Positions 9,188-49,196 of a stretch of 64,000 nucleotides of DNA are shown piece after piece. The notes beneath the pieces are model-generated. The model was not told where the DNA came from. It made no database searches and saw nothing but the letters and a program-made list of their open reading frames with translations. The stretch's first letter is position 1; every line of letters begins with the position of its first letter. Origin of the DNA: Rhodocytophaga rosea (GTDB lineage Bacteria; Bacteroidota; Bacteroidia; Cytophagales; 172606-1); NCBI RefSeq assembly GCF_010119975.1, contig NZ_CP048222.1, forward strand, positions 496,001 through 560,000, written 5' to 3'. Both the position numbers and the translations under genes were made by a program.

Positions 9188-9323
9188 TACCTGTGAATCT
9201 GTTCTTATGTAACAAGTAGTTTAGGGCTGCTATAATAATGACAATACCGGAAATAGCGGATGTTCATGCAGGTAATTGATTTTTTGTAATTTTATAATGA
9301 ACAGACAGATTTTATTAGTTTAC

Positions 9324-10313
9324 CTATTTTACTATATGCAAGCGTTGGGCTTCTCTTTCAATTTCGCAAATTTTAGCCACAATTTCATCAGGAAACCACA
9401 ATGGAGTTTTGATACCATCTGCATTTTTGCTTCTGGCTCCCAGATGAAACAGCCTCATTAATAGCGTAAAATAAGGTACTAATTCCAGCTCCAAAGAGGT
9501 TAAGGGCAACAGCTGAGAATAGCTTTCTAAAAAGGAAGTGATATTGTTTTTCTGGTGCCGCTCATAAAAACAGAAACTGCCTATATCATACAATAAAAAA
9601 CCATTCCCACTAAAATCAAAGTCAAACATTGTCACCTTATCAGTACCCGGTTCGATAAATATGTTTTCGTAATGAGGATCTCCATGGCATATACCAGTTT
9701 TCAATTCCTTTCGTACAATGGGAGTCAATTGCCGGGTTAGGATTTCAAAAATTTGTTCAAGTTTCCGGTATACGTCCAGGTAAGTTGGTAATATGGTTTG
9801 AATAGCCTGGCGTGTTCCATCCAGAATACTTGTAACGGAGTAGTTTCTTTGCAAATGGCTAACGTGCTCACCCTGCGTGATCTGATGCATCTGCGCCATA
9901 TAGCTTCCAAACAGAGAAGCCTCCCTGGGGCTAAGTGAGGACAATTTTTCTCCAGCCGCATACGAGAACAAAACGGCCAATCGCTCCCCTTCCGGACTGA
10001 TTATTCTATGAATGAAAATTCCCTGTTTGTCGGCAATAGGAAAAGATACTGAAAGCCCTTGTGCATGCAAAAACAGGAGTACCTGTAATTCAGCCTCTAC
10101 CTGCTCAAAGGTTTTCCACCCGGCTCTATAAATTCTTAAAACATATGTTACAGACGTATCTTGTACCAGATAGGTGTCATGCATCCCCTGATATAAAAAC
10201 AGCACCTTTACTTGCCCGGAATGCGGATAAAAAGCCAGTAATTCCTGTTGTAAAGCCTGGGATGAAATGACCGAATAAGATACGGGAAGAGTCAAAACTG
10301 GGCTTGTATGCAT
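9324..10313 (-). CDS. APH/SrkA-type phosphotransferase (kinase-like)
   Basis: About 329 residues from the ATG at 10313. The frame stays open upstream to 10427, but the 38 extra residues look unlike the family. The catalytic loop is CHGDPHYEN (His 210, Asp 212, Asn 217) and the metal-binding motif MFDFDFSG (Asp 231/233), as in aminoglycoside phosphotransferase, homoserine kinase II and stress-response kinase A families. The N-lobe begins with VKVLFLYQGMHDTYLV. The cytoplasmic substrate could be a small molecule or protein Ser/Thr; nothing here decides it. Confidence 0.82.
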   Translation of the reverse strand: MHTSPVLTLPVSYSVISSQALQQELLAFYPHSGQVKVLFLYQGMHDTYLVQDTSVTYVLRIYRAGWKTFEQVEAELQVLLFLHAQGLSVSFPIADKQGIFIHRIISPEGERLAVLFSYAAGEKLSSLSPREASLFGSYMAQMHQITQGEHVSHLQRNYSVTSILDGTRQAIQTILPTYLDVYRKLEQIFEILTRQLTPIVRKELKTGICHGDPHYENIFIEPGTDKVTMFDFDFSGNGFLLYDIGSFCFYERHQKNNITSFLESYSQLLPLTSLELELVPYFTLLMRLFHLGARSKNADGIKTPLWFPDEIVAKICEIEREAQRLHIVK

Positions 10314-35239: not shown

Positions 35240-36505
35240 CTAGCTTTTATCCTTCACACAGCGGAAACCTGTATGGGAAAGCCCGGTATCCGGACTGCTT
35301 TTCATGCGGGCAGAAACTCGGTAAGAGCTGCAATAGGAATCGTGGCATAGGAATGAACCACCCCGCTGCACTCTTTTAGGAACAGTAGGTTCCTCAGGGT
35401 CATAACTGCTGGCTGGGCCTTTGGGATTCTTCACGCCTTCCGGCTTATTAGTGGTCTGATAGTAATCATGGCGGTAAAAGTCGCTGCACCATTCCCATAC
35501 ATTTCCGGCCATATCGAACAAGCCATAGCCATTGGGAGCAAATGATTTTACCGGAGCGGCTCCATAAAACTGGTCTTTCAGGGTATTCTGGTCCGGGAAA
35601 CGGCCTTGCCAGGTATTGGCTTTGATCTTGCCTTTTTCAATGTGTTCATTACCCCAGGGATATACTTCATTCTGTAATCCTCCTCTGGCCGCCCATTCCC
35701 ACTCTGCTTCGGTCGGCAAGCGTTTACCAGCCCATTTTGCATAGGCTACGGCATCGTCCCAGGATACATGTACCACCGGATGGTTTTCTTTGCCTTTAAT
35801 ACTGCTGTTGGGTCCTTCCGGATGTTTCCAGTCGGCTCCGGCTACCCATTTCCACCACTGAGAATAATCGTTTAATGCTACTTGTTGCACCGGGGCAGAA
35901 AAGACCAGAGAGCTGGCCACCAGTACATCATCTGAGGGTTTGGGTGTTCCAGGAGGCAATTGCTTCTTAATCTCTTCCCAGTCTGGTTTGCGTTCTGCAG
36001 TGGAAACATAGCCGGTAGCTTTTACAAAAGCAGCAAACTGGGCATTAGTTACTTCATGGGTATCCATCCAGAAACCCTCTACTGATACTTTATGTTTAGG
36101 AAACTCATCTTTGCGGGATTCCTGGTTATCTGCTCCCATCTGAAAGGTACCTGCCGGAATTAAGACCATCCCTGTTGTAGCCATTTCTTCGCTAACCTCA
36201 CTTACTGTTTCTATGGTAGCTTTGCTGTTGGTTTGCTGCACAGCGAACCGATCCGGAATATTGCTATGGCAAGACAGGCTGTCGTTGGTTGCATTGGATA
36301 TAAGAGAAGACGAATCAGCTTTTTCAACATCAGCTGTAGTATTTTCCTGTGATGATTGGCAAGAATTAAACACAAGACTCATTCCCAACATCAGTGAAAC
36401 TAGAATTAAATAAGATTTTGCTTCAGGCAAGAAAATAGTAATTCTTCCGGAAAACTTCACCGGAAGATTGGTTATAGATTGGGTTGTTGATTCAATATTT
36501 TTCAT
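35240..36505 (-). CDS. Formylglycine-generating enzyme-type sulfatase maturation lipoprotein
   Basis: 421 residues from the ATG at 36505; a start at 36535 inside the previous gene is possible. A long N-terminal region leads to a hydrophobic segment with lipobox LVFNSC. The FGE-sulfatase domain begins with MVLIPAGTFQMGAD and shows FWMDTHEVTNAQFAAFV, HPVVHVSWDDAVAYAKW, WEWAARGG and GNVWEWCSD. The C-terminal GGSFLCHDSYCSSYRVSAR keeps both active-site cysteines (Cys-x4-Cys, near 387 and 392), so it should be a copper-dependent FGE converting sulfatase Cys to formylglycine. It follows a sulfatase gene by 22 bases; lipid anchoring implies maturation at the envelope. Confidence 0.92.
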   Translation of the reverse strand: MKNIESTTQSITNLPVKFSGRITIFLPEAKSYLILVSLMLGMSLVFNSCQSSQENTTADVEKADSSSLISNATNDSLSCHSNIPDRFAVQQTNSKATIETVSEVSEEMATTGMVLIPAGTFQMGADNQESRKDEFPKHKVSVEGFWMDTHEVTNAQFAAFVKATGYVSTAERKPDWEEIKKQLPPGTPKPSDDVLVASSLVFSAPVQQVALNDYSQWWKWVAGADWKHPEGPNSSIKGKENHPVVHVSWDDAVAYAKWAGKRLPTEAEWEWAARGGLQNEVYPWGNEHIEKGKIKANTWQGRFPDQNTLKDQFYGAAPVKSFAPNGYGLFDMAGNVWEWCSDFYRHDYYQTTNKPEGVKNPKGPASSYDPEEPTVPKRVQRGGSFLCHDSYCSSYRVSARMKSSPDTGLSHTGFRCVKDKS

Positions 36506-36527
36506 TACAAAATAAATAAACACTAAA

Positions 36528-37949
36528 TTACTCATTTGTGGAAGCAGTTTTAGCCTTCCGTTCCAGGTATTTTTTCTTATGACTTTCGTCGGCAGCCATA
36601 CGTTGCACCAGTGCCTTGGGAGTAGGCTCTATCGTAGCCACATATTTTTGCATAGAAGCCAGGAGTTCTTTAGCTTTTGCGGGATTTGTTTTTAGTAAAT
36701 TAGTCTGCTCCCCTACATCTTGTTTCAGGTTAAACAGCAAGGTATCATGCGGAGCCAGGTCTTTCACACCTAGTATACCTTTGTTTCCAGGATACGGAAA
36801 CTTAATTTTCCAGTCGCCTTTGCGGTATGCCTGAATCTGGCCATTGAAATAATACAGCAACTCATCTCCTTTGCGTTTGCCGGTTCCGGTCAGTACGGGT
36901 GTGATGTCTTCTCCGTCCAGTGGATTTTTAGGCCTGTAATTAGTGGCACCAGCTATCTTGAGGAAAGTCGGAAAAAAATCAAAATGAGTAGCCAGGTTGT
37001 CATATACCGTTCCCGCTTTAATTTTTCCAGGCCATGCAGCTACGGTTGGCACTCTCATTCCCCCTTCAAATGTAGTCTGTTTTCCCTCCCTTAATGGACC
37101 GGGCGAACCGCCTTCTACATCAAATGCCAGCCAGGGACCATTATCGCTTGTAAAAATGATCAGTGTATTTTCTTCGAGGCCATTTTTCTGTAACGCTTGC
37201 AGTACTTGCCCTACACTCCAGTCTAGTTCCTCAATTACATCGCCATACAAGCCTCTTTTAGATTTACCCTCAAACTCAGGAGATGCATAAATCGGCACAT
37301 GGGGCATAGAATGAGCCAGATACAGAAAGAAAGGCTTACTCTTATTTTTATTGATGAATTTAACAGCTTCTTCTGTATACACTTTCGTTGTATACCGCTG
37401 ATCTACCGGATATTCGGCTACTTCATTGCCCCGGATGTACGCCGTTCCCATCATGTCGTTGCTATAAGGAATACCGAAATATTCATCGAAGCCATTTTGT
37501 AAGGGAAGAAATTGTTTGTGATGCCCCAGGTGCCATTTTCCAACTATACTCGTAGTATAGCCTTGTTCTTTGAGCGCTTCGGCCATGGTTACTTCAGCGG
37601 CGGGAATACCTGTAAAGCTTTCCGGAAAAAATACCCCATCAATTCCCATTCTTCTGGGATACCGGCCAGTTAACAAGCCTGCCCTGGTCGGACTGCAAAC
37701 CGGAGAAGGGGTATAGAATCCGGTAAACTTGATTCCTTTTTTTGCAATTCCGTCAATATGAGGGGTACGGATGTCGGTAGCACCAAAAGCGCCAATATCT
37801 CCATAGCCGAGATCGTCAGCCATAATCAGCACAATATTAGGTTTAGATGCAGCTGCAAGTACGTTTTCTTCTTTCCTGGGAAGAAAAGCCGTGAGGGCTC
37901 CGGTAATTAATATGACTATTAGTATAGCCAGAATAGTTCTGGGTTTCAT
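36528..37949 (-). CDS. Sulfatase (family S1, Cys-type)
   Basis: 473 residues with a signal or anchor segment (5-22). The metal-binding start is KPNIVLIMADDLGYGDIG and the maturation site is CSPTR (Cys 85 to Arg 89), the residue converted to formylglycine. Further family motifs are VGKWHLGHHKQFLP and FTSDNGPW. The length is normal. It hydrolyses sulfate esters in the periplasm or outside. The FGE gene lies immediately downstream. A 360-base gap with a repeat separates it from the rest of the locus, so it may have its own promoter. Confidence 0.94.
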   Translation of the reverse strand: MKPRTILAILIVILITGALTAFLPRKEENVLAAASKPNIVLIMADDLGYGDIGAFGATDIRTPHIDGIAKKGIKFTGFYTPSPVCSPTRAGLLTGRYPRRMGIDGVFFPESFTGIPAAEVTMAEALKEQGYTTSIVGKWHLGHHKQFLPLQNGFDEYFGIPYSNDMMGTAYIRGNEVAEYPVDQRYTTKVYTEEAVKFINKNKSKPFFLYLAHSMPHVPIYASPEFEGKSKRGLYGDVIEELDWSVGQVLQALQKNGLEENTLIIFTSDNGPWLAFDVEGGSPGPLREGKQTTFEGGMRVPTVAAWPGKIKAGTVYDNLATHFDFFPTFLKIAGATNYRPKNPLDGEDITPVLTGTGKRKGDELLYYFNGQIQAYRKGDWKIKFPYPGNKGILGVKDLAPHDTLLFNLKQDVGEQTNLLKTNPAKAKELLASMQKYVATIEPTPKALVQRMAADESHKKKYLERKAKTASTNE

Positions 37950-38309: not shown

Positions 38310-39146
38310 TTATTCCGCTAGCTCGCTGCCTTTTTTGTTGGATTTGACAAGGGGATAGAGTACCTGGGAATACCAGGGATCATCCGCATAGTCTTCCAGG
38401 CCATATTGTTCTGGGTATTTACGGGTGATTTTAGCAGTGCCGAATATCACATCCCACAGGAAAAACATATTGCCATAATTTCCATGGTAATGCCCTACCC
38501 CATCCCGTTCGTGGGCGGCATGGTGGGCATGGTGGGTAGCAGGTGTAGAGATGGTCCGTTCCATTACCCAGGCAATCGGGTGTAGCCATTTGATGTCATA
38601 AAAAGGTTTGTCCCATTTGATGCTTGAATGCGCCATCATTGTGATGAGGCCTTTAATCCCTCTGGCAAACAAAGCCGGCACTCCTAAGCCCAAAAATACC
38701 AGGGTGGTCGTTACATAGGTTTGCGGAAACAAAATAGTATAGAAAAATCCTTGCCGGCTGGCCATAGCCATGCCCATATACGGGGCAGAATGGTGGGTAC
38801 GGTGGAATTTCCATAGCCATGGCACTTCATGGTGCAGGCGGTGATACCAGTACTGGGTAAGGTCGTCGGCAATACAAATGATAATGAATCCCCACCAGAA
38901 AGGCACCCAGGTAAATATATTTTTGAATTCAGGCAACACTTTAGGAAGTAGTTGCAAGGCAAAATAAGATACGAGCACAGGCACGATCAGTTTCCCGAAC
39001 AGGATACTGGCCAGGTCAACGAGTTTGTCATTGGTTTTCCATTTTTTGTACAGGCCAAATGAAAATTCCAGGATACCTACCGTAAATAAGATAGCAGTTA
39101 AACCCCAGGTATTCAGGTTTTTAAAAACAAGTGTAATGAAATCCAT
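38310..39146 (-). CDS. Sterol desaturase/fatty acid hydroxylase-family membrane enzyme
   Basis: 278 residues, several transmembrane helices. The di-iron histidine boxes of the family are all present: HRLHHEVPW, HRTHHSAPY and, near the C-terminus, HATHHAHHAAH-like boxes in TPATHHAHHAAHERDG followed by GHYHGNYG. It would hydroxylate or desaturate a lipid or sterol-like substrate with O2 at the inner membrane. It sits inside the sulfatase locus, which could hint at a lipid or sterol sulfate target, but that is only inference. Confidence 0.9.
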   Translation of the reverse strand: MDFITLVFKNLNTWGLTAILFTVGILEFSFGLYKKWKTNDKLVDLASILFGKLIVPVLVSYFALQLLPKVLPEFKNIFTWVPFWWGFIIICIADDLTQYWYHRLHHEVPWLWKFHRTHHSAPYMGMAMASRQGFFYTILFPQTYVTTTLVFLGLGVPALFARGIKGLITMMAHSSIKWDKPFYDIKWLHPIAWVMERTISTPATHHAHHAAHERDGVGHYHGNYGNMFFLWDVIFGTAKITRKYPEQYGLEDYADDPWYSQVLYPLVKSNKKGSELAE

Positions 39147-39493: not shown

Positions 39494-41080
39494 CTATATC
39501 GGGAAGAAGTATTTTTCACCGTTTACTTCTATTGTAGAATTTGTCCGGTGAGGCCAGGTGGGCGTTTGCAGTTTACTTTCCCAGGTTTTTAAATCAGCCA
39601 GCAATTCTTTTACTTTTTCCGGATGTTCGGCACACAAATCTTTGGTTTCGGAGCGATCTTTGGCCAGGTTGAAAAGCAGTTGTTTGCCGTTACGTTCATT
39701 GATATACAGCTTGTAATCTCCTTTGCGGATGGCTTTTGAATAGCCACTGCGCCAGTACAACGTTTCATGCGGAGCTCCTTGTTTCTGGTTGTTGAGGAAG
39801 GGCAATAAATTTACGCCATCATATTCCCGGTCTGTGGGCAGTTTTACTCCAGCGGCAGCCGCAACGGTAGGGAAAATATCCAGGTTACTTACCGGCAACG
39901 TATACTCTTTACCAGCCGTGATTTTACCGGGATACTTGATAAAATAGGGTACCGAATAGCCTCCTTCAAAATGGGAAAGTTTTCCTCCTCTCAAGGGTGC
40001 ATTATCAGTGCCTCTGGTATACGTAGCACCGCCATTATCGCTGGTGAAAACAATGATGGTATTCTTGTCAAGCCCTAAATCTTTCAGTTTCTGGTGAATC
40101 CGGCCAACGGCATTATCCAGACCTGTGATCATGCCATAATATACCCGTTTGGTAGAATCACTCACATTCGGATATTTGTCAAAGTCGCTTTGTTTGGCCT
40201 GGAAAGGATCGTGAGGTGCATTAAAGGGCAGATACAAAAAGAACGGATTGGTTTTATTCTGCTCAATATAAGCAATGGCTTCATCAGCAAATTTGTCTGT
40301 CAGGTATTGTTTTTCATCTACATCCTGGTTGTTTCGCACCAGCCGGTTGGAGCCATTCCGGTGCCAGGCAGCCGATTCACTCAATGCCCAGGGTAAATGT
40401 TTATCCACTACCGAAGGATCGGATTCTGGAGAGTATAAGGTTAAGCCGCTGTAAAAGCCATAATGATAATCAAAACCACGTTGCTGCGGATAAAAACCTT
40501 CTGTTTCGCCCACATGCCATTTGCCAATAATAGCTGTTTTATACCCGTTTTGTTTCAATAGTTTGGCCAGAGAAATTTCAGATTCTGGTAAGCCTTTCCC
40601 AATTTTATTGAAAGCTTCTTCATCAATTCCCGGCTCTCGTGATGAGCCGACCTTTGCTTGAAAAGCCAGTAATTTCTGCATTTGTTCCGGAGAAGGTTTT
40701 TGACCTGTATTTTGCGGTACCAGAAACTCAAAACCAAAGCGCTGCTGGTACCGGCCTGTCAATAAACCGGCTCTGGATGGGCTGCAAATAGGTGCAGAAG
40801 AATAGGCCTGTGTAAAGCGGATTCCTTCTTTACCAAGTGCATCAATATTGGGCGTTTGAACAATTTTATTCCCATAGGAAGCCAGGTCGGTATAACCCAG
40901 GTCATCGGCCAGGATTACTACAATATTAGGTTTGGTTGCTGCCTGTATACTGGCAGGAAGGCTTTTCTTACCAGGAGTTTTATCCTTGTATGTAAAAGCA
41001 GTAATCAGGAAAACAGCAAGGGTTACCGCCAGACTTAGTGCGGCAAATAGGGCATCCTTTCGTTTTTTATGAAATTTCAT
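39494..41080 (-). CDS. Sulfatase (family S1, Cys-type)
   Basis: 528 residues with an N-terminal basic region and hydrophobic segment (about 12-31). The metal-site start is KPNIVVILADDLGYTDLAS and the maturation motif CSPSR (Cys 99 to Arg 103). Other sulfatase blocks are AIIGKWHVGETEGFYPQ, TSDNGGATY and RGGKLSHFEGGYSVPYFI. Full length, catalytic residues intact. It starts 27 bases after a frameshifted small gene in the same operon. Confidence 0.94.
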   Translation of the reverse strand: MKFHKKRKDALFAALSLAVTLAVFLITAFTYKDKTPGKKSLPASIQAATKPNIVVILADDLGYTDLASYGNKIVQTPNIDALGKEGIRFTQAYSSAPICSPSRAGLLTGRYQQRFGFEFLVPQNTGQKPSPEQMQKLLAFQAKVGSSREPGIDEEAFNKIGKGLPESEISLAKLLKQNGYKTAIIGKWHVGETEGFYPQQRGFDYHYGFYSGLTLYSPESDPSVVDKHLPWALSESAAWHRNGSNRLVRNNQDVDEKQYLTDKFADEAIAYIEQNKTNPFFLYLPFNAPHDPFQAKQSDFDKYPNVSDSTKRVYYGMITGLDNAVGRIHQKLKDLGLDKNTIIVFTSDNGGATYTRGTDNAPLRGGKLSHFEGGYSVPYFIKYPGKITAGKEYTLPVSNLDIFPTVAAAAGVKLPTDREYDGVNLLPFLNNQKQGAPHETLYWRSGYSKAIRKGDYKLYINERNGKQLLFNLAKDRSETKDLCAEHPEKVKELLADLKTWESKLQTPTWPHRTNSTIEVNGEKYFFPI

Positions 41081-41107: not shown

Positions 41108-41514
41108 TTACTGGCCTAAGAAATTGCCTTCTACTAGCCACTGCGATAAATGAACTGGTACATATCCGGAAGCGTAATCCTTTTTCACTTCCAGATATTC
41201 CAGGTACTGGGAAACTTTATTGAAAGCAAGGGTGAGATCGTCGATAATATCGATACTGTCTGCTGCCGTGGTGCGGATAGAAAGCGTAGTTTCATTATCA
41301 GCGTGCGGGGTGCAATTTCAATCACCAGGGTATCAGTAGCATCCAGCAATTGCACAAATACTTCTGTTGCTGCATCACTTATAGATAATACCAGCAGAAA
41401 ATGATTGTCTTTGAGCCTGGTAGCTTTTTTTACAAATGGATGAAGCTGCAGAAAATGCAGGATATCATTGGATTGTGTAGAAGGACGTATATGTGTTGAT
41501 TTGATCAGTGTCAT
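41108..41514 (-). pseudogene. Small gene interrupted by a one-base frameshift
   Basis: From ATG 41514 one frame codes MTLIKSTHIRPS and continues to LVIEIAP. Just past the C4 run (plus-strand G4 at 41307-41310) the coding character moves to another frame: it reads ADNETTLSIRTTAADSIDI, continues through AFNKVSQYLEYLEVKKDYASG and ends ...SQWLVEGNFLGQ with TAA at 41108. Adding one C restores a 135-residue protein. Without it the ORF runs to a poor C-terminus at 41185. Sequencing error, a recent mutation and programmed slippage are all possible. Family not recognised; soluble, in the sulfatase operon. Confidence 0.65.
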
Positions 41515-41653
41515 GCGTGTAAAATATGAATGGTTAATAAAAAGGAATAAAGAATTACTTACAGAAATGAGTTCTGGCAAGCGCAACATCGAAATTCCGA
41601 TTCTAGAAGCATTACATTTTTACCCATGGAATTAGCTGGTTGAAGTGTTGTTG

Positions 41654-43300
41654 TTAATTGTTACGCTGACTGACTACAGCCCAATCCTGTACGCCTGCTT
41701 TTTGTGTCCAGGCAGTATAAAGACCAATCAGTTCGTTCAGTTTTTCAGGATTTGTCTGGCTTACATCGTTGAGTTCGGTGCGGTCAGCTTCAATGTCGAA
41801 TAAGCGCCAGCGGTTTTCAGGATAACTGGACACAATTTTCCATTTGCCTTGCCGTACTGCCCGGTTTCCCTGGTGTTCCCAATACAATACTTCATGTCCG
41901 GCCCAGGGCTTGCCTTCCAGCACATTCCGCAGGGAAATTCCTTCGGCAGGAGTGATAACATTTCCTTTTACAGTTTTAGGATATTTCGCACCAGCCAGGT
42001 CAAAAATGGTTGCTTGTACATCTATCAAATGGGCAGGCTGATTATTGATAGAGCCCCCTTTGATCACACCTGGCAAATAGGCGATAAATGGACTGCTGAT
42101 GCCGCCTTCATGTTCCCAGTGTTTAAAAGACTGAAAAGGTGTATTACTGGCATTGGCCCAGTTGTATTCATAGGTCACAAAAGACTGCGGATGGTCGGCT
42201 GGCAAGTTTTTCACCTGTTTGGTTACTTCAGGCGTTTGTTTCCAGAGTGGAAAGGCATATTCGTGACTTGCCCCATTATCCGACATAAACAACACCAGTG
42301 TATTCTGATCCGCACCAATTTCTTTGAGTTTATCCAGAATGCGGCCCACGTTCTGATCTACCCTATCAACCATGGCAGCAAAAACCGCCATCTTCAAATC
42401 CCAGGCATTTTGTTCCGAAGCCCGTAACTGGTTCCAGGCTGGCACCAGCGAATCTCTGGGCGAAAGCTTCCATTCCGGTTTGATGATGCCCAGTTTCAGC
42501 AGTTTCTGATACCGTTCCGAACGGATTACATCCCAGCCTTTTTTGTATTTGCCCCGGTACTTTTCTATATCTTCCGGCAATGCCTGCAAAGGAAAATGAG
42601 GCGCTGTATAGGTAACATGCAGGTAAAATGGTTTCTTTTCTGCTTTGGCTTCATCCAGGAATTTCAGGGCATAATCGGTGAATTCATTGGTGAGGTAATA
42701 GCCGTCTGGTTTTGCTTCCGTTAAGTAGTTATCCAGTTTTTGCCCATTCAGAATGAAATAATCATGTTCGCGCAATTTGAAAGGATGCGGATAAAAATAA
42801 TTGCTGGTTCCTCCGATCAGGCTGAAAGTACGGTCGAAGCCTCTGGCAGAAGGCCACTGATCTGGCTCATTACCAATATGCCACTTTCCCGACAAAGCTG
42901 TAAAATAACCTTGTGTTTTCAGTCCTTCGGCAATGGTAATGCTGTTTTTACTCAAATACCCTTGGTAAGCCGGTGATCCCAGATTCAAATTCATACTCCC
43001 TACTCCTGCCTGATGCGGATACAAGCCGGTGAGCAGCGCCGCCCGGCTGGGGCAGCAGCGGGAAGTATTATAGAACTGCGTCAGCCGCAAACCGCCTTGT
43101 GCCAGCTTATCTAAATTGGGTGTATTAATTTCAGAACCATAGCAGCCAATATCCGAAAACCCCAGGTCGTCTACCAAAATGACTACAAAATTAGGTTTGG
43201 CAGGTTTTGCTTTTCTAATACCTTCTCTCTGCGGCACCGACTGGATAAAAACGGTACTCACCAGCAATAAGGCAATAATCAAGATTTTAGGTTTATACAT
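41654..43300 (-). CDS. Arylsulfatase-type sulfatase (family S1, possibly S1_4)
   Basis: 548 residues with a signal peptide (about 4-22). It opens with KPNFVVILVDDLGFSDIGCYG and has the maturation motif CCPSR (Cys 82 to Arg 86), followed by LSGKWHIGNEPDQWPSARGF and MSDNGASHEYAFPLW. The layout, with a long insertion before MSDNG, resembles the S1_4 arylsulfatase group, whose Pseudomonas member is known to be induced by sulfur starvation. It lies 70 bases after the SusD gene, in the same transcription direction. Confidence 0.94.
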   Translation of the reverse strand: MYKPKILIIALLLVSTVFIQSVPQREGIRKAKPAKPNFVVILVDDLGFSDIGCYGSEINTPNLDKLAQGGLRLTQFYNTSRCCPSRAALLTGLYPHQAGVGSMNLNLGSPAYQGYLSKNSITIAEGLKTQGYFTALSGKWHIGNEPDQWPSARGFDRTFSLIGGTSNYFYPHPFKLREHDYFILNGQKLDNYLTEAKPDGYYLTNEFTDYALKFLDEAKAEKKPFYLHVTYTAPHFPLQALPEDIEKYRGKYKKGWDVIRSERYQKLLKLGIIKPEWKLSPRDSLVPAWNQLRASEQNAWDLKMAVFAAMVDRVDQNVGRILDKLKEIGADQNTLVLFMSDNGASHEYAFPLWKQTPEVTKQVKNLPADHPQSFVTYEYNWANASNTPFQSFKHWEHEGGISSPFIAYLPGVIKGGSINNQPAHLIDVQATIFDLAGAKYPKTVKGNVITPAEGISLRNVLEGKPWAGHEVLYWEHQGNRAVRQGKWKIVSSYPENRWRLFDIEADRTELNDVSQTNPEKLNELIGLYTAWTQKAGVQDWAVVSQRNN

Positions 43301-43370: not shown

Positions 43371-44867
43371 CTATTTATCCCACCACAATCTGGGTTCCTG
43401 GTAATTGGAAGCACCTGGCAATTGTTTGTTTAGTGATTGCTCATTCTGCGGATAAGGAAATCTTCTGGGAATTTGTCCGTTGGGATTTAAGCTGTGCGTT
43501 GCATTTACAGCCAGAGGAACTTCCGGATAGCCAGTTCGGCGGTAATCAATCCAGGGTTCAACCTGCAAAAACAGCGCAATATATTTCTGGGTAATTACTG
43601 TTTTTAAATCCTGCTGGAAATCGCCGGTCAACATAGCTTTTGCTGCCAGATAAGCTGCCCTTTTTTCAGCCGTAGCATTTGGGTCAGAAGCATTGGTAAT
43701 TACTTTATTGAAAGAAGCAGTAATAGCTTCGTTTAAGGCAATCTGCGCTTTTGGATCAGTTTGATTCAGAATTAATCTGGCTTCTGCTTCAATAAACTTT
43801 GCTTCAGGATAGGTAATAAACGCCACCGGGGATGTAGCCGACCCATAATAAGAACCGATCAGCGAAAAGGCGCCAGGAATACCGGCAATTCCTCCCTGGT
43901 ATTTGCCAGATTGCAAAGCCGTAGCAAAATAAGCCCTGCGTGGATCAACCAGACTGGCGGCATCTTTGGTACTCGGGTCAGTTACTTCATTGCCATTCAG
44001 CAGGTTTACAAAAGAAGCACCAAGCCCTACCCAACCTGGACGAGAGGTATTCTGCTGGTAGAAAGGATTCGCATTTGTCTGAGCGGCACCAAATACCACC
44101 TGTACATCTCCGGCATTAGAAGAAATCCCTCTGTATTTTCCGTCCGGTCCTCCTTCATATAGGTAAGATAAGGCTTTGGTAGCCGCTTCGGTAGGATTTA
44201 CTTTACTTAAGTGTAAGGCATGTCTGGCTTTTAAAGTCCAGGCGGCTGCCAGCCAGTTTTGAACATTTCCTTTGAATATTAAATCATCAGAACCGGGAGG
44301 CGCCGTGATGAATGAACCCGCAGGCTGACTTAAATCGGTAATAGCTGAATCCAGAATAGCCTGGATACCTTCGTACACCTGCTGTTGTGAATCGTAAGCA
44401 GGTGCTGTATTGGCACTTCCTTTTAAAGACTGGCTAAACGGTACATCTCCGAAAGAATCGGTTAAGGTACCATAGGTGAAAGCAGTCAGCACTCTGGCAA
44501 TTCCTGTGTAATAGGGTGCATTAGCAGCTTTGCTTTTTTCGATGATGATATTTAACTCATTTAAATTATTGGTGTAAAAGTTCACCCAAAACCCATTAAA
44601 CCGGCCAGGAATGGAAGTATAATTATCATTAGAGGTAGCATCTCCGTTAGAACCGGCTGTCTGTTGTACAACAGTTGCAGCTAATAAGCCAGCATCCAGG
44701 CCTAAATTATAAGCAAGTGTACCTTGTGCACCAGTCAATATCACGCTTAAAGGAGCATCTGCAGGCGCATTCGGATTTTCATTCACTTCCTGAAGCTCGC
44801 AGGAGGAAATGACCAACATCATCAGGGCAAGAACAACTATATAGATAGGAAATAATTTCGTTTTCAT
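43371..44867 (-). CDS. SusD/RagB-type nutrient-binding outer-membrane lipoprotein
   Basis: 498 residues from the ATG at 44867; a start at 44921 would overlap SusC and add a non-family extension. The lipobox is VISSC; CELQEVNENPNAP follows. The body is SusD-like (the second SusD family, PF12771-type): QGTLAYNLGLDAG, RFNGFWVNFYTNNLNELN, and a TPR-rich helical scaffold with FTYGTLTDSFGDVPFS. It forms the lid of a SusCD importer on the cell surface. The lipobox Cys is its only cysteine. The gene starts 26 bases after SusC. Confidence 0.93.
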   Translation of the reverse strand: MKTKLFPIYIVVLALMMLVISSCELQEVNENPNAPADAPLSVILTGAQGTLAYNLGLDAGLLAATVVQQTAGSNGDATSNDNYTSIPGRFNGFWVNFYTNNLNELNIIIEKSKAANAPYYTGIARVLTAFTYGTLTDSFGDVPFSQSLKGSANTAPAYDSQQQVYEGIQAILDSAITDLSQPAGSFITAPPGSDDLIFKGNVQNWLAAAWTLKARHALHLSKVNPTEAATKALSYLYEGGPDGKYRGISSNAGDVQVVFGAAQTNANPFYQQNTSRPGWVGLGASFVNLLNGNEVTDPSTKDAASLVDPRRAYFATALQSGKYQGGIAGIPGAFSLIGSYYGSATSPVAFITYPEAKFIEAEARLILNQTDPKAQIALNEAITASFNKVITNASDPNATAEKRAAYLAAKAMLTGDFQQDLKTVITQKYIALFLQVEPWIDYRRTGYPEVPLAVNATHSLNPNGQIPRRFPYPQNEQSLNKQLPGASNYQEPRLWWDK

Positions 44868-44892
44868 GAGAATTGACTTAATAAGAGCATGA

Positions 44893-47800
44893 TTAAAAAG
44901 TAAGATTGATAGAAGCACCATAACTGCGGGTGTTCGGAGTAGTCCAGAAATCGATACCAGAGAAGTTGGTCAAACCATTGCGGGTGCCTAAATCCGGGTC
45001 AGAACCAGTATAGTTGGTAGACAGCAGGAAGTTTCTGGCCGTAAGTGTCAGGCTGGCTTTAGTTAATTTCAGCGGAGCAATTAATTTTTCTGGTAAGCTG
45101 TAAGTAAAGTTTACGTCCCGTAAGCGCAGCCAGTACAGGTTTTTCTCGATGTATAAACCCTGAATATCAAACGTGCGGCGGTACCATGCCTGCCCGATTT
45201 TTACATTAATATCATTAGCGGTTCCTTCGCCATTTTTCACGCCATCAAATACATGATCCTGGCCCCGGTTTTCGGTAGATTTGTCTACGCCATTAAATAC
45301 CATCTGCAAATGGGGTGCATTGAATATATCAAAGCCATAGCGGGTATCCAGGAAGAAGGAGAAAGCGAAGTTCTTATAGGTAAATTCATTCCGCAAACCT
45401 GCATTGAATTTAGGATTAGGATCACCGATTTGGGTAAACGAAGGATTTACAATAGGATAACCGTAGTTTGAATTCGGCGTTCCATTGGCCAGTACCGGAC
45501 TATCATCGATCAATACTTTGCCCTCTTCATTTTTCTTTACATCAATCCCATAAAATACACCATATGGCTGACCTACCATTCCTCTGGCTTCCATCCAGAT
45601 TCCTCCCAGGCTTACATTATCAATTCCTTCTGCCAGAGACAATACTTTGCTGATATTTTTAGAATACACTAAGGTCGCATCCCAGCGGAAACTTCCAGGT
45701 GTTTGAATAGGAGTGGCATTTAAGGTAATTTCTACGCCCCGGTTAGAGATTTCCCCGGCATTAATTAAACTGAACTGCGAACCGGTTGAGGAAGGAATCG
45801 CTACCGGAATAATCTGATCTTTACTCAGGTTATGGTAATACACTGCCTCAATGCCTGCCCTATTGTTAAGGAAACGCAGGTCTGTACCCAATTCCCAGGT
45901 ACTGATTCTCTCTGGTTTCAGGTTAGGGTTTCCTAAAGTATTGGAATAGCTCAAGCCTGCCTGATTGTTGAACGGATAGGTAACGCCACCCTGAATCCAT
46001 CCGGTTGTATTGGAATTGGTATAATACGTTTGTAAAGAATACGGATCAGCATCATTACCCACCTGCGCATACGTAGCCCTCACTTTTCCAGAAGACAACC
46101 ATCCGCTGCTTAAGCCCAAGGCATCGGTAAATACCCAGCTGGTATTTATCGAAGGATAAAAGAAGGAATTCTTGCCTTTAGCCAGGGTAGAAGTCCACTC
46201 ATTGCGGCCAGTTAATTCCACAAACAGCCAGTTTCTGTAATCCAGCCTAACGTCTGCATAGCCGGCTACTAATCTTCTGCGGATGGTCTGGTTGAAGGAA
46301 GTGGACGTAGAGGCATTGGATATATTAAAATTTCCAGGAACAATCAGTCCATCTCCCCTAGTATTGATCTGATTCCGGAATGAGTTATAAAAATTGTGTC
46401 CCAGTAAAACCGTCAAATTCAAATCTCCGCCTAGTTCCGGAGCAATGGTGAAAATCAGATCGGTATTGTAATCCCTGCGTGTATAATTTACATCGTTAAT
46501 TGTACCAGTAGGCACCCCGGAAGTTCCCCGGCTGAATCCGCCTTTGCGTACATCCGTATAGCTATCTATTCCATAGCGGAAGGTTGATTTGAGCCAGGGC
46601 AGTATTTCATAATTGGCTTCTGTAAAACTAATAAAGCGGTTTACTTCATCATTTTGCGGATTCATATTCAGCGACCAGTAGGGACTGTCCCAGCCCCGGC
46701 CATTGGCATAGGAACGGGAATCGCCCCAGGGTTTGGCATTCGTAGCTGGCAAGCGGTAAGCATTAGGATTGTTCCAGGGTTCATCCAGGCCGTTGGTAAT
46801 ATCAAAGTTGGGTGAGGTATTCATTAAAGCCCGAACTACGTTGGTATTAAATCCACCCATTAAAGCCCGGTTATTGGCTCCGGAGTTGATAAAGTTTATG
46901 CCTCCTGCGATTTTGAACTTATCGGTTACATTATAATCTCCATTGAAACGGAAAGTAGTCCGGAAGAAATCGGTGGTCGGAATAACGCCAGTCTGGTATA
47001 AACGGCCTACTGAAAAATAGTATCCGGCTTTTTCTGTATTGCCATACACACTTACATGGTGGCTTTGGGTTTTTCCTTTCAGATAAAAATTATCGACATT
47101 ATCATAGCGGTTTACCGGAATACCGTTAGAACGGGGATCATTTTGCCCGACAATCAGGCCGTTTTTATCAAATTGACTGGGAATATCTGAATAGGTAAGT
47201 GTATCCAGCAGCGCACCCCAGCTTTCATCCGAACCGGTTTGTCCAGGAAGAATATACTGGCCGTTTAGTCCATTAGAGAAATTGTTCTGTTGCGGTTGTA
47301 CCCGGCGGTTAATTTCATCTACTGTAAAAGAACCGGAATATGACACATTGAAGCTTTTATCGGTCAGCCTGGTGCCTCTTTTGGTTGTCAGAATAACGGC
47401 TCCGTTGGCTGCCCGGATGCCGTATAGTGCAGCGGCAGCCGGTCCTTTCAGTACAGTAACTGATTCAATATCATCACTGTTGATATCTACGGCCCGGTTA
47501 GAAGGCGTAGCCAGAGAATTCACGTTGGTAATATTTCCCAGAATATCCTGAATGGAGTTATCTACCGGAATGCCATCTACAATGAATAAAGGCGAATTAT
47601 TGCCCAGCAACGAAGAATTTCCCCGGATACGGATAGAGGCTGACCCGCCGGGAGAACCACCACTGTTCCCAATCTGTACACCGGCAACTTTACCGCTCAG
47701 CGCTTGTACTACATTAGGTTCCCGGGCATTTACAATATCCTTGCCTTTTACTTCCGCTACGCTATACCCCAGGGCTTTGGTTTTACTTTCAATACCTACC

Positions 47801-48117
47801 GCTGTTACTACTACCTCTTCCAGCAACTGGTCATCGGACAGGAGTGAAATATCAATCGCAGAACGGTTATTAATGGTAACTTCCTGTGTTTTAAAGCCCA
47901 CAAAACTGAATATAAGTATATTGTTTCCTGGAACTGTTTTTATAGCGTAGTTTCCTTCTGCATCGGTTACAGTGCCACTGGTGGTATTTTTAAAGAATAC
48001 GTTTACGCCCGGCAGCAACTCGCCTTTGGCATCTTTCACCTTGCCTGTAATGGTGCCATCCTGCGCATATATGCCAATGCCGGACAATAGAAAGACGATG
48101 AGTAATATATTTTTCAT
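44893..48117 (-). CDS. SusC/RagA-family TonB-dependent outer-membrane transporter
   Basis: 1074 residues. Signal peptide 1-18 (ending IYAQ), then a carboxypeptidase-regulatory-like domain (GTITGKVKDAKGELLPGVNV) to about 95, the TonB-box region EEVVVTAVG, and the plug with the SusC signature RIRGNSSLLGNNSPLFIVDG. The beta-barrel follows to the end, YGASINLTF. It imports oligomers with its SusD partner, energised by TonB/ExbBD. I see no cysteine in the whole protein. No ECF sigma/anti-sigma pair or hybrid two-component sensor is nearby. Instead, a poly-Cys leader ORF lies 190 bases upstream. Confidence 0.96.
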   Translation of the reverse strand: MKNILLIVFLLSGIGIYAQDGTITGKVKDAKGELLPGVNVFFKNTTSGTVTDAEGNYAIKTVPGNNILIFSFVGFKTQEVTINNRSAIDISLLSDDQLLEEVVVTAVGIESKTKALGYSVAEVKGKDIVNAREPNVVQALSGKVAGVQIGNSGGSPGGSASIRIRGNSSLLGNNSPLFIVDGIPVDNSIQDILGNITNVNSLATPSNRAVDINSDDIESVTVLKGPAAAALYGIRAANGAVILTTKRGTRLTDKSFNVSYSGSFTVDEINRRVQPQQNNFSNGLNGQYILPGQTGSDESWGALLDTLTYSDIPSQFDKNGLIVGQNDPRSNGIPVNRYDNVDNFYLKGKTQSHHVSVYGNTEKAGYYFSVGRLYQTGVIPTTDFFRTTFRFNGDYNVTDKFKIAGGINFINSGANNRALMGGFNTNVVRALMNTSPNFDITNGLDEPWNNPNAYRLPATNAKPWGDSRSYANGRGWDSPYWSLNMNPQNDEVNRFISFTEANYEILPWLKSTFRYGIDSYTDVRKGGFSRGTSGVPTGTINDVNYTRRDYNTDLIFTIAPELGGDLNLTVLLGHNFYNSFRNQINTRGDGLIVPGNFNISNASTSTSFNQTIRRRLVAGYADVRLDYRNWLFVELTGRNEWTSTLAKGKNSFFYPSINTSWVFTDALGLSSGWLSSGKVRATYAQVGNDADPYSLQTYYTNSNTTGWIQGGVTYPFNNQAGLSYSNTLGNPNLKPERISTWELGTDLRFLNNRAGIEAVYYHNLSKDQIIPVAIPSSTGSQFSLINAGEISNRGVEITLNATPIQTPGSFRWDATLVYSKNISKVLSLAEGIDNVSLGGIWMEARGMVGQPYGVFYGIDVKKNEEGKVLIDDSPVLANGTPNSNYGYPIVNPSFTQIGDPNPKFNAGLRNEFTYKNFAFSFFLDTRYGFDIFNAPHLQMVFNGVDKSTENRGQDHVFDGVKNGEGTANDINVKIGQAWYRRTFDIQGLYIEKNLYWLRLRDVNFTYSLPEKLIAPLKLTKASLTLTARNFLLSTNYTGSDPDLGTRNGLTNFSGIDFWTTPNTRSYGASINLTF

Positions 48118-48163
48118 GATCGCTTATGCAAACTTTTGATTTGTGTATGATTAATTATTAGAC

Positions 48164-48202
48164 AAAAAAGAGTCAGGCTACTCATACATAGATGTATGTA
48201 GC
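48164..48202 (-). promoter_or_regulatory. Hairpin and U-run between leader ORF and SusC, possible attenuator
   Basis: On the minus strand GCTACATACAT (from 48202) pairs with ATGTATGAGTAGC (to 48177) with a two-base bulge. CTGACTC and six T (48169-48164) follow. A short GAGT/ACTC stem directly abuts the T-run and would compete with the larger hairpin. It lies about 105 bases after the leader stop codon and 46 bases before SusC. It is not a textbook terminator, since 7 bases separate stem and T-run. Confidence 0.35.
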
Positions 48203-48307
48203 TACAACTGCCTATTCACCCACCTTGCCAGGATCGGAAAATAGAGTATAGTAAAATAAAGTTGTGATTAGTTTAAGACTGAATAGCTTCGAGCCTTAAC
48301 AAGGAAA

Positions 48308-48409
48308 TTAACAACAACAGCAACAACAAGGCTGGTCAGAGTAGAGAACCGGAACCAGGGAAGTTCGGGAAATAGTTTTGTGATGTTGTCTTTGTACAGT
48401 GATTCGCAT
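48308..48409 (-). CDS. Cysteine-rich leader peptide (six terminal Cys codons)
   Basis: A 34-codon ORF below usual gene-calling limits. It starts at ATG 48409 (MRITVQRQHHK...), continues with TISRTSLVPVLYSDQP and ends in six consecutive cysteine codons (TGT TGT TGC TGT TGT TGT, 48328-48311) followed directly by TAA. A run of one amino acid at the end of a tiny ORF ahead of a biosynthetic or uptake operon is the classic form of an attenuation leader peptide. Here ribosomes would stall when Cys-tRNA is short. It lies 190 bases before SusC of a sulfatase locus and about 130 bases after a predicted transcription start. The ORF is certain; expression and regulatory role are inferred. Confidence 0.75.
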   Translation of the reverse strand: MRITVQRQHHKTISRTSLVPVLYSDQPCCCCCC

Positions 48410-48545
48410 GGGTAAAAGGTTTAAGTCAGGTTTACTAAAGGTGCTTCTGCAATTGCAGCAGACACTAAAACTTGGTTTCGTATTTATTATGGATAAAGCT
48501 GTTTGTTACAGCAGCCTGTCCTACCTTATACTTTCAATTATATTG

Positions 48546-48576
48546 CAAAATTATAAGCACTTTTTATTTATCCAAA
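48546..48576 (-). promoter_or_regulatory. Bacteroidota-type promoter for leader-susCD-sulfatase operon
   Basis: On the minus strand TTTG (48576-48573) and TAATTTTG (48553-48546) match the -33/-7 consensus TTTG ... TAnnTTTG with the favoured 19-base spacer. Transcription would begin near 48540, giving an untranslated stretch of about 130 bases before the leader ATG. That stretch holds a small palindrome (GCAATTGC core, about 48451-48469). Confidence 0.6.
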
Positions 48577-48773
48577 CAAAAGTCTATAATATTTATAGAC
48601 TTAATGAACATTATGTGAAAAAATCTTTATTTTGGCTAAAGCAAAGGAATATTTATTCCCGTAGATTCAGTAGATTGAGCCACACAAATCAAGTCTTCTC
48701 ATGATGAAGAGCAGCTAAAGAATTTTATTTGGCATTATTTATGCGATTATTAAGCAAATTCTGCAAACACATG

Positions 48774-49196
48774 ATGCGTACCTTTAAAATGAAAGATTTT
48801 TTACTTTTACTTTTAACAATTAGTTTATTCACATTTACCGGACATACTTTGCAGGCTCAGAGTGATGTTACCAATGGAGCTAAAGCTGCCTTAAAAAGCG
48901 GAAACTCCCGGGAACTTGCCAAGTATTTCAACAGCAGCATTGAACTTATTGTGGAAGCCGAAAATGTGGACATGGATAAAGTGAGTAATGCCCAGGCTGA
49001 ACTGATTCTGAAAACCTTCTTCCAGAAGTATCCGGCTAAAGATTTTACCTATGGACACCAGGGTTCATCCCCGGAAGGCTTGCAGTACAGTACTGGCACT
49101 TACCAGTCAGCAAATGGCTCCTTTCTGGTGTATATGGTGGTGAAACAATTTGGCGGCAAATATTTAATTGACCGCATTGATTTCCGCAATCAGTAA
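48774..49196 (+). CDS. DUF4783-family exported protein
   Basis: 140 residues from the ATG at 48774; the frame continues upstream to a TTG at 48729, and an ATG at 48789 is also possible. Signal peptide to about LQAQ. The mature domain (NGAKAALKSGNSRELAKYFN, VSNAQAELILKTFFQKYPAKDF, YLIDRIDFRNQ) is the DUF4783 fold, related to NTF2-like proteins. Function unknown. In Bacteroidota it commonly precedes nadC, as it does here. Confidence 0.88.
   Translation: MRTFKMKDFLLLLLTISLFTFTGHTLQAQSDVTNGAKAALKSGNSRELAKYFNSSIELIVEAENVDMDKVSNAQAELILKTFFQKYPAKDFTYGHQGSSPEGLQYSTGTYQSANGSFLVYMVVKQFGGKYLIDRIDFRNQ

Follow-up and report, generated by a model that had tools for sequence, protein, structure and literature searches.

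A 33-codon open reading frame (ORF) that ends in six consecutive cysteine codons lies just upstream of an operon for a SusC/SusD-type outer membrane system and three sulfatases in Rhodocytophaga rosea. This ORF is very probably a cysteine-specific leader-peptide attenuator of the operon, one that would turn sulfur scavenging on when cysteine is short. Comparison across genomes brings out the ORF itself, its preference for terminal cysteine codons and its membership in a family of leaders found before genes of cysteine and sulfur metabolism. The window, by which we mean the whole stretch of DNA analysed, comprises 64,000 nt of contig NZ_CP048222.1 (assembly GCF_010119975.1, forward-strand positions 496,001-560,000), and its features are as follows.

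48546..48576, minus strand: Bacteroidota-type promoter-like site TTTG-19-TAATTTTG, identified by motif match, about 136 nt upstream of the leader ORF start
48308..48409, minus strand: 33-codon leader ORF, translation MRITVQRQHHKTISRTSLVPVLYSDQPCCCCCC followed by stop; an ORF of the same length with a Cys tail lies at R. aerolata L065:9665-9766
48311..48328, minus strand: six consecutive Cys codons (TGT TGT TGC TGT TGT TGT), directly before the TAA at 48308-48310
48164..48214, minus strand: candidate weak intrinsic terminator between leader and SusC, hairpin 48214-48172 and U6 tract 48169-48164, -10.6 kcal/mol
44893..48117, minus strand: SusC/RagA TonB-linked outer membrane protein, first gene of the operon (TIGR04056, 625 bits, cut-off 368)
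43371..44921, minus strand: SusD-like lipoprotein (PF12771)
41654..43300, minus strand: sulfatase with CCPSR motif (PF00884 and motif)
41185..41589, minus strand: 134-aa ORF without a family match; conservation in R. aerolata is weak (43% over 58 aa)
39494..41080, minus strand: sulfatase with CSPSR motif (PF00884 and motif)
38310..39146, minus strand: fatty acid hydroxylase superfamily protein (PF04116)
36528..37949, minus strand: sulfatase with CSPTR motif (PF00884 and motif)
35240..36535, minus strand: sulfatase-modifying-factor-domain protein (PF03781)

A cysteine-tailed ORF upstream of a SusCD-sulfatase operon

The ORF was first proposed in a reading made from the letters of the window (the sequence-only reading), and its start codon, frame, 33 residues, six Cys codons followed by TAA, and distance of 190 nt from the SusC ATG (A at 48117) all proved exact when the sequence was read again. 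Amino-acid leader-peptide regulators are marked by a small ORF ahead of their genes in which codons for a single amino acid follow one another, and this ORF, with six Cys before TAA, has that form. The run is far above chance expectation as judged by pattern searches of the 8.98-Mb genome with a reversed control: five Cys codons followed by TAA occur once, in the window leader, and four followed by TAA occur six times, with no match of the control pattern in either case. A search of the peptide against NCBIfam returned no family, and an Rfam search of positions 47900-48900 gave five matches, all far below gathering scores, with no riboswitch or T-box.

The downstream genes make up a SusCD-type locus, with a TIGR04056 match above cut-off, a PF12771 protein and three PF00884 sulfatases; the upstream neighbours of the operon are a DUF4783 gene and nadC. 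The sulfatases, and the leader itself, suggest that the operon would serve sulfur scavenging rather than carbon acquisition.

A simple promoter and terminator scan of the leader region returned five sigma-70-type sites (shuffle mean 3.6) and no terminator. The sequence-only reading had also placed a promoter, TTTG-19-TAATTTTG, upstream of the ORF. The site, which we take to follow the -33/-7 consensus, is present as described; taken alone it stands at chance level, with two such motifs in the window against 2.16 expected. The motif is enriched in a set of 68 leaders, occurring upstream of 15 of them including the window's, compared with 2 on the antisense strand and 1.1 in shuffles. This set was picked by hand from pattern matches of the order and phylum, the metY leaders and the R. 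aerolata SusC leader, and its counts describe that set, window included. In the same scan the motif was absent at the R. aerolata SusC leader and at the metY and AhpC/TSA leaders of the R. rosea genome.

The orthologous locus in Rhodocytophaga aerolata

R. aerolata (Cytophagales, Bacteroidota) carries the same operon, gene for gene. Protein identity to the window is 89% for SusC, 79% for SusD, 85, 79 and 83% for the sulfatases, and 43% over 58 residues for the small ORF; the SusC genes are 79% identical as DNA. Homology at the DNA level begins at the SusC start codon and nothing upstream of it is alignable: alignment of the two 700-nt upstream regions matched 383 of 621 columns (62% identity), and shuffles gave 59-66%. 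The upstream neighbours also differ, being Rrf2, ChrB and chromate-transporter genes in R. aerolata. Even so, a leader is present. It reads MNTPKNTQLSTLQVSAKCITNLKHAQGRCCCCR, is also 33 codons long, ends in CCCCR before its stop codon (CCCCCC in the window) and lies 195 nt before SusC, compared with 190 nt. The sole exact match of at least 10 nt at a corresponding place in the two 700-nt regions is a 14-nt segment, GTTGTTGCTGTTGT, within the Cys run.

We rejected the view that the R. aerolata leader is merely inherited flanking DNA, given that the two loci cease to be homologous at the SusC start codon and have different neighbouring genes. Since the two leaders share Cys tail, length and spacing despite upstream regions that cannot be aligned, these properties appear to have been kept, or to have evolved again, with the remainder free to vary. 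Lack of conservation at the orthologous locus had been set beforehand as grounds for abandoning the sensor hypothesis; what we found was a leader of equal length at near-equal spacing. Genome G001 of our set is the same R. aerolata record, so the orthologous comparison adds one species, not two.

The R. aerolata locus has additional features. A second Cys-tailed ORF, MKNPSPVEYVWYYPIAGNDIVHQAKKSQSKRRCCC (ending QSKRRCCC; L065:9298-9405), lies farther upstream of SusC, and a divergent second tRNA-Cys (gca) gene (L065:9473-9544), 81% identical to the other copy in that genome, sits between the two Cys-tailed ORFs, 67 nt behind the 9298-9405 ORF and 120 nt upstream of the SusC leader. The R. rosea genome gave one tRNA-Cys match, located elsewhere, and the window contains no tRNA.

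Other cysteine leaders in the R. rosea genome

A search of the R. rosea genome for four consecutive Cys codons, with no stop codon required, produced 65 matches, all of which were read. Those outside coding-length ORFs that have both an ATG and a gene behind are the window leader, two runs before a sulfite/nitrite-reductase-family gene and one before an AhpC/TSA gene; the others lie in or opposite coding-length ORFs or have no ATG before the run. With nearly all of its matches in these latter classes, the four-codon pattern without a stop was discarded as a search handle. When TAA is required, three of the six matches have an ATG (window, reductase-family gene, AhpC/TSA gene) and the three that lack one look like chance occurrences.

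The reductase-family gene (PF01077) is preceded by a leader, MIYKTNSITFCFVQMTKCCCACCCC, ending in CCCACCCC, and then by a second Cys-rich ORF, MMKHIHTTCCDTTCCCCYSTMERLCMG, which holds CCCC. It is followed by a tetrapyrrole methylase gene, and since this fits siroheme and assimilatory sulfite reduction, we read the PF01077 gene as a putative sulfite reductase. Each of its leaders has a terminator behind it, and a near copy of the terminator 3' arm follows the first ORF closely in one unit and falls within the last part of the second ORF in the other. Tandem Cys leaders, each with its own terminator, give the locus (L003/L250, C1:3918000-3932000) the appearance of a double attenuator. The same genome has a leader 138 nt upstream of metY, METLYSLSSQSVVCISGNSLDDLSYFLSVSIICCCH, which ends in IICCCH.

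The AhpC/TSA leader ends in TLTCRCCCC (L006/L249, C1:8674000-8682000). Behind the AhpC/TSA gene are genes for a short-chain dehydrogenase and an ATP-grasp protein with a weak resemblance to glutathione synthetase (PF02955, 24.7 bits), and the locus may mark an uncharacterised thiol pathway.

Cysteine leaders upstream of metY

The metY orthologues of the order were collected without regard to leaders. They are present in 75 of 118 genomes, and 70 upstream regions were read, the sample leaving out five of the 75 genomes and a second copy in G071. In 37 of the 70, an ATG-initiated ORF carried CCC among its nine final residues. For other amino acids, runs of this type reached at most three cases on the sense strand and six on the antisense strand (Leu in both), antisense Cys gave none, and shuffles averaged 0.07 for Cys. 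As for longer runs, at least four residues were found for Cys in 30 of 70 regions and for no other amino acid on either strand, with zero for antisense Cys and for shuffles, and at least five Cys were found in 19 of 70. The run is in contact with the stop codon in 23 of the 37 metY leaders and is followed by one to four residues in the remaining 14. The other 33 upstream regions, that of R. aerolata included, contain no CCC-tailed ORF. The numbers of Cys leaders are tied to the search criteria (ATG starts, a 700-nt limit, a nine-residue tail), and as the genomes are one per species yet related, they do not represent independent events.

Distribution of cysteine leaders in the order, phylum and class

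Of 390 genomes of the order, 70 contain five Cys codons followed by TAA; the reversed control gave eight matches. We classified 84 matches, leaving out seven from G021 that form a tandem repeat opposite a long ORF. Of these, 31 fall in or opposite ORFs of at least 150 aa, 7 lack a gene within 400 nt, and the other 46 are intergenic. The intergenic matches precede metY (22), cysH (5), genes of the sulfite/nitrite reductase family (2), cysS (1), another Cys/Met PLP enzyme (1), TonB-dependent receptors (2), RimK-like ATP-grasp genes (3), a YfhL ferredoxin (1), an NhaC-like gene (1) and other genes (8, five of them without an ATG). Thus 33 of the 46 precede cysteine, sulfur-assimilation or TonB-receptor genes. 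One of the two receptors is SusC of the window; the other, in G058, is near a reductase gene and scores below the SusC cut-off. Targets were named by HMM for representatives and by BLASTP to these for the others; the metY, cysH and cysS representatives reach NCBIfam cut-offs, and the reductase and PLP representatives fall below them.

In the phylum, 29 of 395 genomes have a match, with 33 among the matches listed against about 16 for the control, a raw ratio of about two. Of 29 loci read, 17 are in or opposite ORFs of at least 150 aa and 11 are leader-like. Four of the 11 precede PhyH-family genes and two precede cysS; the others stand before cysH, a tetrapyrrole methylase, a solute-binding protein, an ATP-grasp gene that the order sample also contains, and a hexapeptide transferase that by our reading may be serine acetyltransferase. 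Some of these names rest on likeness to a scanned representative. A class-wide search for six Cys codons followed by TAA or TGA matched in 61 of 395 genomes. Among 29 loci read, 18 are in or opposite ORFs of at least 150 aa and four are leader-like: a cysS gene and a PhyH gene already in the phylum set, the window, and one new locus, before an alpha/beta-hydrolase-fold gene that we read as a probable homoserine acetyltransferase. The small number of leader-like loci in the class sample indicates that the system is sparser outside Cytophagales and that TGA matches are mostly noise. As both wider samples yield few such loci, the distribution is uneven and densest in Cytophagales.

Several loci from these searches have unusual targets. 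In L246 (G058:C64:22000-37000) a TonB-dependent receptor gene with a six-Cys leader, a gene for a PF03601 membrane protein and a reductase-family gene with a seven-Cys leader stand in a row; this is another outer-membrane receptor in a cysteine-leader setting. Three genomes of a single family (L158, L168, L173) have leaders with five to seven terminal Cys before RimK-like ATP-grasp genes, whose products are candidate cysteine-using ligases. In four genomes of one genus (L264, L265, L266, L267), leaders with six to nine Cys after RM lie 51-53 nt before a PhyH-family dioxygenase gene. An eight-Cys leader precedes an NhaC-like transporter gene in L172 (G361:C1), and this protein is a possible sulfur-compound transporter.

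Across species, the amino acid of the run is matched to what the controlled genes supply: Cys leaders stand before metY, cysH, genes of the sulfite/nitrite reductase family and cysS, and before SusC in R. aerolata. For the sulfatases, we infer such a match between Cys and what the genes supply. Together with the R. aerolata leader, these similar leaders before cysteine and sulfur genes lend support to the proposal of the sequence-only reading that the ORF is a cysteine or sulfur sensor.

Cysteine leaders at relatives of the sulfatase and SusC genes

Relatives of the first sulfatase gave 53 matches among those listed; we read 40 upstream regions, treating the window and its R. aerolata ortholog separately and leaving 11. 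Cys-tailed ORFs occur in 2 of the 40, directly before the sulfatase gene in each case (ending in MVVSTISFFPGTCCCC and MVVSSISFLPGAFCCC), and the two belong to two species of one genus (g53) of another family. The other 38 have no Cys-tailed leader; a CCC-bearing ORF in L449, about 2.7 kb before the sulfatase, was not counted. Among the 40 regions there was also a single instance each of a Lys, an Arg and an Ala run. With Rhodocytophaga and the g53 genus, the link between cysteine leaders and sulfatases is present in two lineages. In a third g53 genome (L451, compared with L448 and L452), the Cys leader and spacer are missing and the promoter-side sequence is retained, which makes these loci a natural comparison for loss of control.

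For SusC, 61 of 70 relatives were read, nine loci with partial or edge matches being left out. R. aerolata was the only one of the 61 in which a run of at least four Cys ends a short ORF. Apart from R. aerolata (89% identical), the best segments of these relatives are 24-39% identical, and in the DNA around the loci a same-strand relative of the window sulfatases is found near SusC in only 2 of 70. The SusCD-sulfatase link is one that rests on two species. The search for Cys-tailed ORFs in Cytophagales that the sequence-only reading had proposed therefore gave a strong signal at cys genes, two cases among 40 sulfatases, and among 61 SusC relatives R. aerolata alone.

Folding of the leaders

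The candidate terminator hairpin between the window leader and SusC is weak (-10.6 kcal/mol, compared with -18.9 kcal/mol at the reductase locus of the same genome) and is missed by the simple scan described above; in the same folding test, nothing resembling a terminator hairpin was found at the R. aerolata SusC leader. Predicted pairing of the window terminator arm was 0.94 with a ribosome stalled on the first Cys codon, 0.81 with the ribosome at the stop codon and 0.88 with no ribosome. Because the fold does not switch with ribosome position, the classical attenuation scheme is unsupported at the window leader, and no trp-type antiterminator was found there. Folding of the entire window leader is not more stable than that of shuffled sequences (z -0.68).

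In folding, reductase unit 1 behaves as a trp-type leader would when the ribosome moves from the first Cys codon to the stop. A ribosome on the first Cys codon leaves the antiterminator to form, with terminator-arm pairing of 0.08; one on the last Cys codon or at the stop leaves the terminator to form, with pairing of 0.99. With no ribosome the value is 0.19, favouring the antiterminator, so the off state would need a ribosome near the stop codon. For unit 2 the terminator is more stable at every position tried, and an antiterminator fold (-22.4 kcal/mol) is available before the last arm is made.

Terminator-like hairpins of -10 kcal/mol or stronger lie between leader and gene in 11 of the 68 leaders, compared with 1.0 expected from shuffles, and are lacking in 57. 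Gaps between leader and gene have a median of 149 nt and a range of 51-455 nt (65 leaders). The first 50 nt behind the stop codon are about 61% pyrimidine, compared with 57% for the remainder of the gap (p 0.0004) and 53% in leaderless metY upstream regions (p 0.00003), in a comparison in which related sequences were only lightly filtered. An excess of C over G behind the stop is above that of leaderless metY upstream regions (p 0.001) and is not above that of the rest of the gap (p 0.69).

Proposed mechanism and alternatives

In the mechanism we favour, transcription would start at the predicted -33/-7-type promoter, about 130 nt upstream of the leader ORF, and a ribosome would translate the 33 codons. 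When charged tRNA-Cys is scarce, the ribosome would stall with uncharged tRNA-Cys on the terminal Cys codons, directly before the stop; the operon would then be on, and sulfate esters would be imported and desulfated as a source of sulfur. When cysteine is plentiful, the ribosome would reach the stop codon and expression would be cut off within the 190-nt spacer. For the cut-off we rank premature transcription termination first, at the weak intrinsic hairpin or through Rho, and control of SusC translation second. The proposed sensing step is one that comparison supports well. For the cut-off step, which comparison does not support in this way, premature termination would be the most likely form.

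Two alternatives keep the cysteine sensor and differ in how it would act. In one, the stalled or terminating ribosome would alter access to the SusC start with no premature termination. The 57 leaders with no terminator-like hairpin of at least -10 kcal/mol, and the lack of a terminator switch at the window and R. aerolata SusC leaders, fit such a mechanism, and passages of papers citing the mycobacterial case call that case translational (PMC9031893, PMC13236596). We nevertheless regard it as rather unlikely here, given the long gaps (190 nt in the window), a window leader that folds no better than shuffles, and the enrichment of strong hairpins to 11 of 68. In the other, release of the ribosome at the stop would bare a pyrimidine-rich Rho-loading stretch, which a stalled ribosome would cover, by analogy with tnaC. 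Contact of the Cys run with the stop in 23 of 37 metY leaders, which were found without using the pattern, and the pyrimidine-rich first 50 nt argue for this version; the shift is modest, however, and the excess of C over G does not exceed that seen elsewhere in the gap. We hold it as a tentative proposal, somewhat ahead of translational control.

The remaining alternatives dispense with the sensor. Short Cys-rich proteins exist, and the ORF, with its start and stop, could encode a metal- or redox-binding protein or a modified peptide that lies upstream of SusC by coincidence. It is only the Cys tail and length that are common to the two species, N-termini vary widely across leaders, and 33 of 46 intergenic ORFs ending in five Cys precede cysteine, sulfur-assimilation or TonB-receptor genes, all of which makes a functional small protein most improbable. 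Even less credible is a TGY microsatellite arising by chance or without function. Such repeats do arise in or opposite coding sequence, as seen in the 31 of 84 matches covered by ORFs of at least 150 aa, but the runs considered here are specific for Cys in one strand and frame, lie near a stop codon and before sulfur genes, have near-zero counterparts for other amino acids and in shuffles, and recur with the same geometry in R. aerolata. The cysteine-specific attenuator remains our preferred reading of the ORF.

On a broader scale, we lean towards the view that Cys-tailed leaders define a cysteine regulon of Bacteroidota, dense in Cytophagales and sparse elsewhere, which has been extended to capture at the outer membrane, with a Sus-type receptor and sulfatases switched by tRNA-Cys charging and not by substrate. 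Sulfatase genes of two lineages would have gained such leaders, one lineage being Rhodocytophaga and the other a genus of a different family, and the second tRNA-Cys of R. aerolata might be a local sensor under its own attenuator.

Comparison with known systems

The leader peptides of the trp, his and leu operons are the classical ribosome-mediated transcription attenuators, and they share with the leader described here a run of codons for one amino acid in a leader ORF before genes that supply it. In folding, the reductase leader of R. rosea also shares their 2:3 / 3:4 switch, whereas the window leader has a weak hairpin and no position-dependent switch. Attenuation by tnaC is Rho-dependent, with free tryptophan sensed through the nascent chain. 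A proposed stall near the stop and mildly pyrimidine-rich sequence behind it are points of likeness to tnaC; in contrast, the cue here would most simply be the charging of tRNA-Cys. Sus-type loci are usually discussed as responding to their own glycan, and the leader would tie a Sus-type uptake locus to sulfur status. It also offers a directly testable answer to how cysteine could be sensed in a large group of environmental bacteria, and an ORF ending in a Cys run provides a simple sequence handle for sulfur-acquisition genes whose substrate is not yet known.

Within Bacteroidota, passages of the literature describe leader-peptide-like attenuation candidates: strong clues for leader-peptide attenuation before amino-acid biosynthesis operons in Flavobacterium psychrophilum (PMC9723704), and leader-like ORFs and structured 5' regions in Bacteroides thetaiotaomicron (PMC7366714). 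The main-text passages of these papers name neither a cysteine leader nor a Sus-type target, and in the main text of the former cysteine appears once, for a protease; passages of PMC4833913 do not mention it. In open-licence PMC articles, a scope that takes in neither subscription journals nor preprints, no title or abstract opening among the matches listed concerned a leader peptide at a Sus-type locus or, in Bacteroidota, cysteine leaders of any kind, which agrees with the remark of the sequence-only reading that no described counterpart at a Sus-type locus was known to it.

The closest known system is that of mycobacteria, in which polycysteine leaderless short ORFs act as cysteine-responsive attenuators (Canestrari et al. 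2020, as presented in passages of PMC9031893, PMC9094748 and PMC13236596). According to these passages, contiguous Cys codons lie in a short upstream ORF and the speed of translation is proposed to follow cysteine supply and so control downstream genes. Compared with the ORFs as described there, the leader reported here belongs to another phylum, places its Cys run against the stop codon or close beside it, is followed by a long spacer, and has a Sus-type transporter and sulfatases as its target. Where those ORFs have a leaderless start, the window has a predicted 5' UTR of about 130 nt, and its genome has, in addition, tandem terminator units before the reductase gene. We conclude that the R. 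rosea leader is of the same kind as the mycobacterial polycysteine ORFs, with a target and in a phylum for which the open-licence PMC matches listed hold no description; it would bring leader-peptide control at scale to a phylum in which the passages cited above report candidates only.
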